64,000 nucleotides of DNA. It comes from Neptunicoccus cionae (GTDB lineage: Bacteria > Pseudomonadota > Alphaproteobacteria > Rhodobacterales > Rhodobacteraceae). The notes under the pieces are model-generated. The model was given only the letters and a program-made list of their open reading frames with translations. It was not told the DNA's origin and did not search any database. Where the stretch lies: positions 1-64,000 of the forward strand of contig NZ_PKOJ01000011.1 in NCBI RefSeq assembly GCF_002860325.1. The letters are read 5' to 3'. Made by a program: the position numbers and the translations under genes. Every line of letters starts with the position of its first letter. Positions within the stretch are counted from its first letter, which is position 1. Shown here one piece after another: positions 51,876 through 56,538 of the stretch.

Positions 51876-53147
51876 TCAGGGGAACTTGACCGCTGGCAGA
51901 ACGGTGCCAGCGCATTCGCCGAAGCCGATCGTGAACCCGTCACCCTTGGCCGCACCGCGCAGGGTGACTGTGTCACCGTCTTCAAGGAATGTACGAGTCT
52001 CGCCACTGTCGAGCGTGATCGGATCAGCGCCCGCCCACGTAATTTCCAGCAACGCACCGCGCTGGTGTTTTTCCACACCTGAAATCGTACCGGACCCCAG
52101 CAAGTCGCCTGCACCCATCTCACAGCCGCCGCTGGCATGATGGGCCAGTTGCTGCGCCGAGGAGTAATACATCTCGTTGTAATTGGTGCGCGAGATTACA
52201 GTCTCTTCCTTGTTCTCAGGGGCAAGGGCCACTTCCAGATCGATGTTGTACAGCATCGGGCCGGGCTCTTGCAGGTAAGGCAGCAGCTCGAATTCGCGCT
52301 CCGGTGTGTTGCAGCGGAACGGCTCCAGCGCCTCTTTGGTCACAACCCAAGGGCTGATCGTGGTGGCGAAAACCTTGGCCTGAAACGGGCCGAGCGGCTG
52401 GTATTCCCACGCCTGAATGTCCCGTGCGGACCAGTCGTTAAGCAGCACATAGCCAAAGATCATCTCGTCGGCTTCGGCCACGCTGACAGGCTGGCCCATC
52501 TTGTTGCCAGAACCAACAACCGCGCCCATTTCCAATTCGATATCAAGACGTTTACAAGGGCCAAAAGAAGGAACCGTGTCATTCGGGCCTTTCAACTGGC
52601 CGTTCGGACGGTGGAAGTCGGTGCCTGACACAACCACAGTGCTGGCACGACCGTTATAGCCGATCGGGATGTGCAGCCAGTTCGGCGGCAGTGCATTTTC
52701 CTTGCCACGGAACATCTCGCCCACGTTCTGGGCGTGATTGCGGCCTGCATAAAAGTCTGTGTATTCGCCAACGACGAAGGGCATGCCCATTTCTACATCG
52801 CTTTGGGCGATCATGGCCGCGTTGCGCAGGTCTTCGTTGCCCGACAGCGCATCGTCACCGCCTTCGGCCAGAAGCTCCGTCAGGCGCGCCCGCACGGATT
52901 TCCAAGCGTCAGAACCAAGATCCATGAATTCATTCAGGAACGGCACGTCAAACACAGGGTCTTCACCACCTGCATTGATCACGCCTTCGTCTTCCAGAAC
53001 GCCCAGATCAACGATCATGTCGCCAATGGCCACACAGGGGCTGCCGACACCGTCTTCATCCAGATAAACGCCATAAGGCAGGTTGTTCAGGGGAAACTGG
53101 CTCTCGGCAGAGTTCGCAGACTCTACCCAACTTTTCTTCAAACCCAA
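51876..53147 (-). CDS. fahA: fumarylacetoacetase
   Basis: Fah hydrolyses fumarylacetoacetate to fumarate and acetoacetate, ending tyrosine degradation. The 423-residue protein has the N-terminal SH3-like part (FPLNNLPYGVYLDEDGVGS), a catalytic region with VGEYTDFYAGRNHAQNVG, and the metal site EMGAVVGSGNKMG with NDWSARDIQAWE. Translation starts at TTG, eight nt after AAGGA; no better ATG is in range. A small membrane-peptide gene separates it from hmgA. Confidence 0.95.
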   Translation of the reverse strand: MGLKKSWVESANSAESQFPLNNLPYGVYLDEDGVGSPCVAIGDMIVDLGVLEDEGVINAGGEDPVFDVPFLNEFMDLGSDAWKSVRARLTELLAEGGDDALSGNEDLRNAAMIAQSDVEMGMPFVVGEYTDFYAGRNHAQNVGEMFRGKENALPPNWLHIPIGYNGRASTVVVSGTDFHRPNGQLKGPNDTVPSFGPCKRLDIELEMGAVVGSGNKMGQPVSVAEADEMIFGYVLLNDWSARDIQAWEYQPLGPFQAKVFATTISPWVVTKEALEPFRCNTPEREFELLPYLQEPGPMLYNIDLEVALAPENKEETVISRTNYNEMYYSSAQQLAHHASGGCEMGAGDLLGSGTISGVEKHQRGALLEITWAGADPITLDSGETRTFLEDGDTVTLRGAAKGDGFTIGFGECAGTVLPAVKFP

Positions 53148-53189: not shown

Positions 53190-53336
53190 TCAGTCTTGCG
53201 AGGCGGCATCCTTACCGGAGCCGCCCTTCGCATCGTTTCTTGATCGCTGCTGCATCCATCCGATACACCAGACAACCCCCGCAACAAGGCACAACAGACC
53301 GGCGGCACCGATCAGACCCTGTAGATGCAGGCTCAA
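53190..53336 (-). CDS. 48-residue membrane peptide between hmgA and fahA
   Basis: A TTG inside the hmgA stop region (TTGA overlap) opens a 48-codon frame. It has one hydrophobic helix ([20 protein letters not shown]) and a charged tail rich in Lys, Asp and Ser. It is read through stop-start overlap with hmgA, which would give translational coupling. No separate ribosome site is visible. Function unknown; conservation beside hmgA in relatives would confirm it. Confidence 0.5.
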
Positions 53337-54697
53337 TCCTTCAGGCCGGGCGTGCCGTCAAACTTCTTCTCCAGCCCGTCCCAGCAGTCCACGTAATCAT
53401 CCTGCAACGGCGCTTCGTCAGCGGCAAAGCGGGTCAGTTGCTGCGGGAAGCGGGTTTCAAACATGAACGACATGGTGTTCGTCAGCTTGACCGGATCCCA
53501 GCTCTCCTTGGTGGCATGCTCGAACGCGTTGTTGTCCGGCCCGTGGGGCAGCATGCAGTTATGTAGACTGATCCCGCCCGGGATAAACCCTTTGGGTTTC
53601 GCATCATAGACACCGTAAACATTGCCCATCAGTTCGGACATGATGTTCTTGTGATACCACGGCGGGCGGAAGGTGTTCTCATTCGCCAGCCAGCGTTCGG
53701 GGAAGATCACGAAGTCGATATTCGCGGTGCCTTCTTCAGCGGTGGGCGCGGTTAGCACGGTAAAGATAGACGGATCGGGGTGATCAAAGCTGATCGAACC
53801 GATGGTCGCATAGGTGCGCAGATCGTATTTGTAAGGCGCATAGTTGCCGTGCCATGCCACCACATCCAGCGGCGAGTGGTCGATTTCGCAAGTGTGGAAC
53901 TGGCCGCACCATTTTACGGTCACGCGGCAAGGGGTTTCCTTTTCCTCGAACGCAGCAACCGGTGTTTTGAAGTCCCGCGGGTTGGCAAGGCAGTTCGCCC
54001 CGATCGGACCGCGGTTCGGCAGGGTGAATTTCGCGCCGTAGTTTTCACAAACAAAGCCGCGCGCCTGACCGTCCGGCAGCGTCACCTTGAACAGCATACC
54101 CCGTGGCAGCACACAGATTTCCAGAGGTTCCAGATCAATGATGCCAAACTCGGTAAAAATCTTCAGACGTCCGTCCTGCGGTACCACCAGAAGCTCGGAA
54201 TCAGCGGAATAGAAATAATCATCCTCCATATCCGTATTGGCCAGATAAACATGGCTCGCCATGCCGACCTGCGTACCCACATCCCCTGCGGTGGTCATCG
54301 TTCGCATACCGGTGACGAAGGTCAGTTTCTCATCGTTGAACGGCACCGGATCCCAACGGTACTGACCCAAGGAGATAACATCCTCAATCACATGAGGTGC
54401 GGTCTTCCAGTAAGGCATATCTACCTTGTTGAACCGGCTGACGTGCTTCACGCTCGGGCGGATACGATACATCCAGGACCGTTCCAGCGTCGCATGGGGC
54501 GCTGTGAAGGGAGAGCCGCTGAGCTGTTCTGCATAAAGACCGTATTCAACCCGCTGCGGGCTGTTTCGCCCGACGGGCAGCGCACCGGGCAGGGCCTCGG
54601 TTTCAAAATCATTGCCAAAGCCGGGCATATAGCCTTCGGTCACACCGATATTCGATGCGGCCTGAACGAAACCCTTCGGCTGTGTCTGCTTGTTCAT
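53333..54697 (-). CDS. hmgA: homogentisate 1,2-dioxygenase
   Basis: HmgA opens the ring of homogentisate with a ferrous iron. The 454-residue protein has [18 protein letters not shown] near the start, [15 protein letters not shown], and the iron region [14 protein letters not shown] with [18 protein letters not shown]. The length and order match the family. A consensus promoter with an operator-like spacer lies 35-64 nt upstream of its ATG. It leads the catabolic gene run. Confidence 0.96.
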
Positions 54698-54731: not shown

Positions 54732-54761
54732 ATTATATCGTTGCAAATGCAACGATGTCAA
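54732..54761 (-). promoter_or_regulatory. hmgA promoter with palindromic operator in the spacer
   Basis: Read on the reverse strand, a perfect -35 TTGACA (54756-54761) and a perfect -10 TATAAT (54732-54737) are separated by 18 nt. The spacer is a palindrome; with flanking bases it reads ATCGTTGCAAATGCAACGAT at 54737-54756 on the plus strand, with 9-bp arms. A bound repressor would block polymerase directly. The -35 overlaps the stop codon of the methyltransferase gene. Confidence 0.8.
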
Positions 54762-55411
54762 TTCCCGAGTTGCCCCTTCCGCCCTTCGGCCCCTGAAACT
54801 TCCAGAACGAGCCAGTCCCACGTGACCCCCGCCGCGATATTCTGCGGTTGGACTGACGCCACCTTTTTATGACACGTCACAGAAAGCCCGATATCACGGG
54901 CCTGCCCCAGCAGCCGCCCCGCCTCTCCGCCATAGCTTGGCCGTCCCGCCGGCGCCGGACCGTTACGTACCGAGATCACCAGTCTTGCCACAGGGGCTGC
55001 AAGGGAACACAACGTGCGAAGGGCAGTTTCCCGCTCTGCCAGCTTCAGGTGGTGCCAGACTCCGTTCAGGATCAATACGTCATAGAGACCACCGGCCTGC
55101 CGCAGTTCTGTGAGGTCGGGCAGTTGATCCGCACTCCACGTCAGATCAAGGCCACGGTGCAACGACTGCCCAGCGCTGCGGAACGCCGCCACAGGCTCAA
55201 CCGCCGTCACGATATGCCCCGCCCGCGCGAGCCATGCAGCATCCCGACCGGTCCCTGCCGCCACATCAAGCACGCGGCAGGGTCGGACGGGGAGAAAATC
55301 CAGTACCGGCGCAAAGACCTGCAAGGGATCAAGCGCTTCGAACCGGTCAATCAGATCTTCCGCATCGCGCGCATAACCTGCCAGAACCTCTGTCTCCCTA
55401 TTATCGGTCAA
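54758..55411 (-). CDS. class I SAM-dependent methyltransferase
   Basis: The 217-residue protein has the SAM motif LDVAAGTGRDAAWLA and an acidic loop VTAVEPVAAFR, then LILNGVWHHLKLAERE. The fold is UbiE-like and the acceptor is unknown. I place the start at TTG 55411, preceded by AGAGGGGG; upstream in-frame ATGs at 55450 and 55456 would overlap the regulatory site before marR. It lies between hmgA and the divergent marR, so it may share the regulator. Confidence 0.78.
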   Translation of the reverse strand: MTDNRETEVLAGYARDAEDLIDRFEALDPLQVFAPVLDFLPVRPCRVLDVAAGTGRDAAWLARAGHIVTAVEPVAAFRSAGQSLHRGLDLTWSADQLPDLTELRQAGGLYDVLILNGVWHHLKLAERETALRTLCSLAAPVARLVISVRNGPAPAGRPSYGGEAGRLLGQARDIGLSVTCHKKVASVQPQNIAAGVTWDWLVLEVSGAEGRKGQLGN

Positions 55412-55454
55412 ACCGATCCCCCTCTTGATCCCGTTGCGCCCACATCGCATACTC

Positions 55455-55475
55455 ATATCACTTGCAACGATATCA
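55455..55475. promoter_or_regulatory. second copy of the hmgA operator half-site, before marR
   Basis: TGCAACGATATCA (55463-55475) matches TGCAACGATGTCA (54748-54760) of the hmgA operator at 12 of 13 positions. Outer arms ATATC (55455-55459) and GATAT (55469-55473) form an inverted repeat. It ends 11 nt before the marR start and follows a candidate promoter (TTGATC 55425-55430, 17 nt, CATACT 55448-55453). Autoregulation is likely. Confidence 0.6.
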
Positions 55476-55486
55476 GGCGACCGGAT

Positions 55487-55915
55487 TTGTCCCAATTCTC
55501 TCTCGACGATTTTCTGCCCTATCAACTTGCCGTAGTCTCTGCGCGGGTCAGTCGCGAGTTCTCGCAGATTTATGCGGAACATTTCGACATGTCTGTTCCG
55601 GAATGGCGGGTGCTGGTGCATCTACATAATGCGGGCCCCGTTTCGATACGCGAAATTCAGGCGCGCGTTGATATGGATAAATCCAAAGTCTCCCGCGCGG
55701 CTTCACGGTTGGAGAAAGCGGGATTCCTGACCAAGGAAACCAACGCCGACGACCGCCGCCTTCTGAAACTCGGCCTGACCGAACAAGGCTATGCGCGAAT
55801 GGAACAAATCATCCCGCTCGCCAACAAATTCGAGCAGGAACTGCTGGAACGGATGGGCGCAGATACAGACGGTTTCCGCGAAACCCTTCTCAAACTTCTG
55901 AAAGACAACACATGA
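55487..55915 (+). CDS. MarR family transcriptional regulator of the homogentisate genes
   Basis: The 142-residue protein has the winged helix of MarR (SVPEWRVLVHLHNAGPVSIR, then ARVDMDKSKVSRAASRLEKA and the wing DDRRLLKLGLTEQG). It probably starts with TTG at 55487; no ATG is in range upstream. It is coupled to maiA by a four-nt overlap. Its position and the shared operator suggest it represses hmgA and itself and is released by a pathway intermediate, as reported for HmgR-type regulators, but the ligand is unknown. Confidence 0.85.
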   Translation: MSQFSLDDFLPYQLAVVSARVSREFSQIYAEHFDMSVPEWRVLVHLHNAGPVSIREIQARVDMDKSKVSRAASRLEKAGFLTKETNADDRRLLKLGLTEQGYARMEQIIPLANKFEQELLERMGADTDGFRETLLKLLKDNT

Positions 55916-56538
55916 CCACGACCCTTTACGATTACTGGCGGTCCTCTGCTGCATACCGCCTGCGCATTGCCTTTGGTATCGCAGGTATCGGCTATGAAGC
56001 CGTGCCGGTGGACCTGCTGACCGGTGCGCACCAAAGTGCCGAAAATCTGGCCCGCAATCCGCAAGGGCTGGTGCCAACTGTTGAAATCGACGGCCATACG
56101 CTGACCCAGTCTCTGGCCATCATCGAATATCTTGGTGATGCGGGGCATTACAACTTCCTGCCCGAAGGCGCATTGGAGAAGGCCCGCGTCCGCGCGTTGT
56201 CCTACGCAATCGCCATGGAAATTCATCCTGTGTGCAACCTCTCGGTTGCCAAATTCGCTGCTACGAACTCCGGCGGCGAAATCACGATGGAAAGCTGGAT
56301 GCGCCAGTTCATTCCAAAAGGGCTGAAAGGGTTCGAGGACATGCTGCAAGGGGACGGCACATATTGCTTTGGCGACAATGTGACACTCGCTGATCTTTGC
56401 CTCGTGCCGCAAATCTACAACGCAAACCGCTGGGGTGTGGACCTGTCGCCCTTCCCCAAAACCCGCGCCGCCTTTGCCGCGCTAGAGAAACTGGATGCAG
56501 TGCAAGCGGCCCACCCGGACAACTGGCAGCCGGAATAA
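55912..56538 (+). CDS. maiA: maleylacetoacetate isomerase (zeta-class GST)
   Basis: MaiA converts maleylacetoacetate to fumarylacetoacetate with glutathione. The 208-residue protein has the zeta-class signature RSSAAYRLRIAF near the start and the NPQGLVPTVEIDG and QSLAIIEYL segments of the glutathione site. The C-terminal domain has GDNVTLADLCLVPQIYNA. It is cotranscribed with marR and complements hmgA and fahA on the other strand. Confidence 0.95.
   Translation: MTTTLYDYWRSSAAYRLRIAFGIAGIGYEAVPVDLLTGAHQSAENLARNPQGLVPTVEIDGHTLTQSLAIIEYLGDAGHYNFLPEGALEKARVRALSYAIAMEIHPVCNLSVAKFAATNSGGEITMESWMRQFIPKGLKGFEDMLQGDGTYCFGDNVTLADLCLVPQIYNANRWGVDLSPFPKTRAAFAALEKLDAVQAAHPDNWQPE

Follow-up and report, generated by a model that had tools for sequence, protein, structure and literature searches.

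A MarR-family regulator of Neptunicoccus cionae very probably represses, as a dedicated local regulator, the homogentisate branch of tyrosine breakdown, acting on hmgA-fahA and on marR-maiA, with a compound of tyrosine degradation as the derepressing signal. The regulator is encoded in a stretch of 64,000 nucleotides, referred to here as the window. Genome comparison makes it a well-supported conclusion that a MarR switch at the homogentisate genes, an ordinary kind of metabolic control, is conserved across Rhodobacteraceae. A regulator without a named target would in this way gain a regulon, an operator and a likely inducer throughout a large family of marine bacteria. The locus contains the following features.

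51876..53147, minus strand: fahA, located downstream of hmgA and encoding fumarylacetoacetase (TIGR01266, 546 bits; cut-off 375)
53333..54697, minus strand: hmgA, homogentisate 1,2-dioxygenase (TIGR01015, 657 bits; cut-off 511)
54732..54737, minus strand: -10 box of hmgA, TATAAT, read from the sequence (TATAAT, TAGAAT or TACAAT in the three closest genomes)
54738..54755, minus strand: candidate hmgA operator TCGTTGCATTTGCAACGA, a perfect palindrome that fills the promoter spacer (53/53 relatives; part of the six-sequence footprint)
54756..54761, minus strand: -35 box of hmgA, TTGACA, read from the sequence (TTGAC invariant in the six-sequence alignment)
54758..55456, minus strand: SAM-dependent methyltransferase gene, between both operators (Methyltransf_23/25)
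55453..55470, plus strand: candidate marR operator TCATATCACTTGCAACGA, a degenerate full site (the same or a variant at equal distance from marR in L184-L187)
55487..55915, plus strand: marR, MarR-family regulator (PF12802/PF01047; conserved N-terminus)
55912..56538, plus strand: maiA, maleylacetoacetate isomerase (TIGR01262, 233 bits; cut-off 171)

The genes hmgA and fahA probably form an operon. The marR and maiA reading frames overlap in an ATGA and are therefore probably carried on one mRNA; the TTG start of marR was inferred by alignment with relatives. The MarR winged-helix domain scores above the curated cut-offs of both families (PF12802, 56.5 bits with a cut-off of 27; PF01047, 55.3 bits with a cut-off of 24.6). 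The first ATG of the methyltransferase gene, at 55456, falls within the marR operator. A methyltransferase gene occupies the same place in the related locus L184, where it is 86% identical and hmgA 100%. In Neptunicoccus sediminis (L185) the gene is absent from this place and both operators are unchanged, so that it was either inserted between existing operators or lost in that species.

Upstream of hmgA, on the minus strand, a TTGACA (54761-54756) and a TATAAT (54737-54732) are separated by an 18-nt spacer and lie about 35 nt before the start codon at 54697. The original prediction held that this spacer is itself a palindrome, and this proved to be real: the 18 nt form the perfect palindrome TCGTTGCAttTGCAACGA, with arms of 9 bp over 54737-54756 and one extra base pair on each side of the spacer. 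The 20-bp palindrome pattern occurs a single time in the window and in none of 100 shuffles, and with up to 3 mismatches 0.04 matches would be expected. In a pattern scan of the 4.29-Mb genome, the exact 18-mer was found once. Genome sites within 2 mismatches of the family consensus TCRTTGCAnnTGCAAYGA number 7, the marR site among them, compared with 1 for the reversed control. Among non-redundant hmgA promoters with an operator of the window's type, TTGAC immediately precedes the operator in 64 of 76 and TA follows it in 52 of 76; in a six-sequence footprint, TTGAC and the operator are kept while the flanks diverge. These observations indicate that the operator occupies the promoter spacer as a rule, rather than by accident in a single genome.

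Is the palindrome kept where the regulator is kept? A scan of named-species genomes with this MarR returned 80 loci; its closest matches are those of a Rhodobacteraceae metagenome-assembled genome (98% identity) and of Neptunicoccus sediminis CY02 (92%). The original prediction had named absence of the palindrome from hmgA, in relatives that keep marR, as an outcome that would speak against it. The opposite was found: of the loci containing this MarR together with an hmgA start, every one (53 of 53) has the operator (at most 2 mismatches) no further than 150 bp ahead of hmgA. In 50 of these 53 a TTGA -35 box directly adjoins it, and across 839 kb just 2 sites were left without such a placement. 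The exact operator is present in 11 of 149 genomes of the family, each time about 5 kb or less from a MarR ortholog, with no hit for the reversed pattern; it was not found in the 384 other alphaproteobacteria of a 385-genome class sample, in which only the window's own genome matched.

The association is also seen without physical linkage. In two genomes, G131 (L147) and G124 (L143), hmgA retains its operator with marR-maiA on another contig, and the hmgA operator is likewise kept with 0-2 mismatches in G015, G011, G053 and G036, although in G036 the gap between operator and marR is only 5 kb and in G053 both are on one contig. Seventeen hmgA genes from genomes without a MarR of the window's type, and with no linked MarR match, have no operator-like site (at least 5 mismatches). 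Where a MarR of the window's type is linked to hmgA, 2 of 24 loci have no site directly at hmgA (L075 and L086), and both have sites before marR; one further genome, G002, encodes a MarR of the window's type and lacks an operator at hmgA. The operator thus stays at hmgA when marR is elsewhere and, as described below, changes with the recognition helix, two sequence-level observations that lend support to the predicted regulatory link between MarR and hmgA.

Two further arrangements were seen among the relatives. In G060, a genome with no hmgA match, an exact operator is found upstream of fahA instead (L055, 7999-8016). Three or more operators lie near hmgA and marR in L070 (6398-6465), L074 (7247-7337) and L083 (6024-7405), a pattern in the sequences that suggests cooperative or graded repression in these relatives.

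The second site of the locus had been described as half of the palindrome, recurring before marR. The 13-mer TGCAACGATATCA at 55463-55475 does agree with the hmgA-side 13-mer in 12 of its 13 bases, and 11 nt separate its end from the marR TTG start at 55487, so the recurrence itself was confirmed; the site is not a half-site, however, since this 13-mer forms the right arm of an 18-mer that is complete though degenerate, TCATATCActTGCAACGA, which ends 16 bp upstream of the marR start and whose left arm, TCAT, is kept in relatives. At 55453-55470 it differs from the perfect palindrome by 3 mismatches and from the family consensus by 2. Sequences around the marR start are diverged in L186 and L187, yet a TCAT...TGCAACG skeleton is still found at the same position. 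Across marR starts of the window's type, 44 of 111 have a site (at most 3 mismatches) 10-32 bp upstream, a recurrence that favours the predicted autoregulation.

Does the operator change with the protein that would read it? A second MarR clade, 32-41% identical, is encoded divergently from many other hmgA genes in Rhodobacteraceae. Its recognition helix is mostly HKTK[IV]SR, compared with [DE]KSKVSR in the window's type, and its hmgA operator reads TRGTTACAnnnnCAACYA. Helices of the form [D/E]-K-[S/P] co-vary with TCRTTGCA operators, and H-K-T helices with TRGTTACA operators. Every one of the 23 loci whose operators are of the first kind has D or E at the helix position, and 43 of 45 with the second have H, a lineage correlation with few independent changes, because the label follows clades in the tree. 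Both MarR-operator systems coexist in one genome in G106 (L087/L141), G082 (L083/L166) and G138 (L077/L182); G106 carries a pair of hmgA copies, each with a different system, and G082 has only an hmgA remnant beside the first type. A third MarR paralog, with helix DKVQVSR, is found near hmgA or marR loci (L074, L083, L149, L072 and L080). In L149 (G023), where the hmgA operator is of the window's type, no other MarR is linked, which implies that related MarRs may share an operator. With their co-varying recognition helices, the two classes of operator provide a natural collection in which DNA reading by MarR proteins could be studied, and they might serve as homogentisate sensors.

Outside Rhodobacteraceae, one alphaproteobacterial family has hmgA-linked MarRs with helix MHKTKVSR and sites like TGGTTACATCTGTAACCA, and other hmgA-linked MarRs, with helix MDKVAVSR, have TAGTTTCATCTGAAACCA near marR. 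A one-residue code, in which D/E or H in the helix sets the outer half-site, was rejected phylum-wide because MDKVAVSR proteins have TAGTTTCA sites. From these comparisons, a family of hmgA-linked MarR switches seems to extend through the phylum. We consider the evidence evenly poised on whether the hmgA-linked MarRs across Pseudomonadota represent one old homogentisate-repressor lineage, in which the 18-bp operator frame is kept and its letters change with a few helix residues; the half-sites would then be TCGTTGCA, TAGTTACA, TGGTTACA and TAGTTTCA, and the helix residues DKSK, HKTK and DKVA. If a single lineage is indeed involved, the systems that coexist in G106, G082 and G138 would be repressor-operator sets that are orthogonal by nature and could readily serve to test a MarR recognition code.

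Could the palindrome be a chance or structural feature, with no protein bound to it? A perfect palindrome can form an RNA or DNA hairpin, but the -35 and -10 boxes would place any transcription start downstream of this one, which would thus not be transcribed from the hmgA promoter. The lack of palindrome matches in the shuffles, the presence of the operator in 53 of 53 loci, and the conservation of base identity, beyond complementarity, across 76 promoters together make this explanation next to impossible. That another regulator binds the palindrome, with marR a mere neighbour, is very unlikely. In favour of it, the DKVQVSR paralog adjoins hmgA with the same operator type in L149 and further operators in L074 and L083; the operator nevertheless tracks the window's type of MarR across genomes even when the two are unlinked, recurs at marR and co-varies with the recognition helix.

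Why should a protein in the spacer repress rather than activate? MarR might act from there in the manner of MerR, by distorting a promoter with an overlong spacer, and the palindrome does sit exactly in the spacer, the position used by MerR-type activators, within a spacer 1 nt above the optimum. MerR-type promoters usually have spacers of 19-20 nt, however; the 18 nt of the hmgA spacer are close to the optimum and the two hexamers match the consensus, so that the promoter should be strong unaided. Tandem operators around hmgA in some relatives also fit occlusion better than activation. Repressors typically hinder RNA polymerase binding inside the promoter, and activators bind further upstream (PMC5487221). 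Activation by MarR is, in our judgement, unlikely.

In the repression mechanism that we infer, a MarR dimer would sit on the 18-bp palindrome between the -35 and -10 boxes of the hmgA-fahA promoter and, because a protein dimer in the spacer would block RNA polymerase, would keep the polymerase off this promoter by steric exclusion. MarR would also bind, probably more weakly, the degenerate palindrome before its own start, and the presumed marR-maiA operon would be damped. A tyrosine-degradation compound would lower the DNA binding of MarR, and hmgA, fahA and maiA would be derepressed together. The inducer is most likely homogentisate or its ring-cleavage product, because the genes with operators encode only steps after homogentisate, and hpd lies elsewhere without an operator; the IclR-type HmgR of Pseudomonas putida, which is relieved by homogentisate, is the analogy behind this proposal. 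Leakage of the homogentisate pathway gives pigment-forming homogentisate.

A site at hpd had also been suggested, and there is none. The gene, searched as a further target, is present in a single copy away from the hmg genes, with no operator, and its neighbour is a divergent Lrp/AsnC-like gene (L091, 2738-3217). On both counts hpd was rejected as a member of the regulon, and the upper step of the pathway seems to be separately controlled. Elsewhere in the genome, an operator with two mismatches, ACGTTTCAATTGCAACGA, stops 10 bp short of a gene that we read from its sequence as a putative 3-oxoacid CoA-transferase subunit A (L005, 1501-1518; G000:C1:917210-917227). Such an enzyme would use acetoacetate, the end product of the homogentisate pathway. 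Conservation of the site is limited to two genomes that are nearly identical, and G003 (L308) has a match with 3 mismatches; this gene is at most a candidate member of the regulon. Another two-mismatch site (L003, 1501-1518; G000:C1:374971-374988) ends 12 bp before an IclR-type-like regulator gene and lies 61 bp from a divergent transporter-receptor-like gene.

How does this regulator relate to those already described? The closest solved structure by sequence is PDB 2fa5, a MarR/EmrR-family protein of Xanthomonas campestris (93 bits over residues 6-140); the entry names no function. HpaR and its kin are MarR repressors of aromatic-acid operons and belong to another pathway; the window's MarR scores 35.9 bits against the HpaR model TIGR02337, well below the cut-off of 121.2. 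Our literature search, which covered few subscription journals or regulon databases, so that an earlier description is possible, found no paper naming a MarR regulator of hmgA in Rhodobacteraceae.

In Pseudomonas putida, HmgR, an IclR-family protein, is the repressor of the hmg genes, and homogentisate relieves the repression (cited in PMC5343134). The window's regulator is of a different protein family: a family search found no IclR effector domain in it, the cross-match to the IclR helix-turn-helix is weak, and its best families are MarR. The homology to HmgR implied by the name used in the original prediction was therefore wrong. HmgQ of Azotobacter and Shewanella, also a local regulator of homogentisate genes, is of the LysR family (PMC5343134) and differs from the window's MarR in both protein family and lineage. 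Different lineages use unrelated proteins to control the homogentisate pathway, and the regulator described here adds another solution.

The nearest description is that of HmgS, a MarR-family protein predicted by comparative genomics to regulate hmgAB in Alteromonadales/Pseudoalteromonadales, in three gammaproteobacterial genomes only (PMC5343134). The window's regulator has the features of this type, being a MarR protein with an operator at hmgA-fahA and presumed control of these genes. Both are MarR proteins with predicted local control of homogentisate genes, and we liken them by description and not as orthologs. MarR-type control of hmg genes having already been predicted for HmgS in Alteromonadales, we file the Rhodobacteraceae regulator as a new addition to this kind of control.
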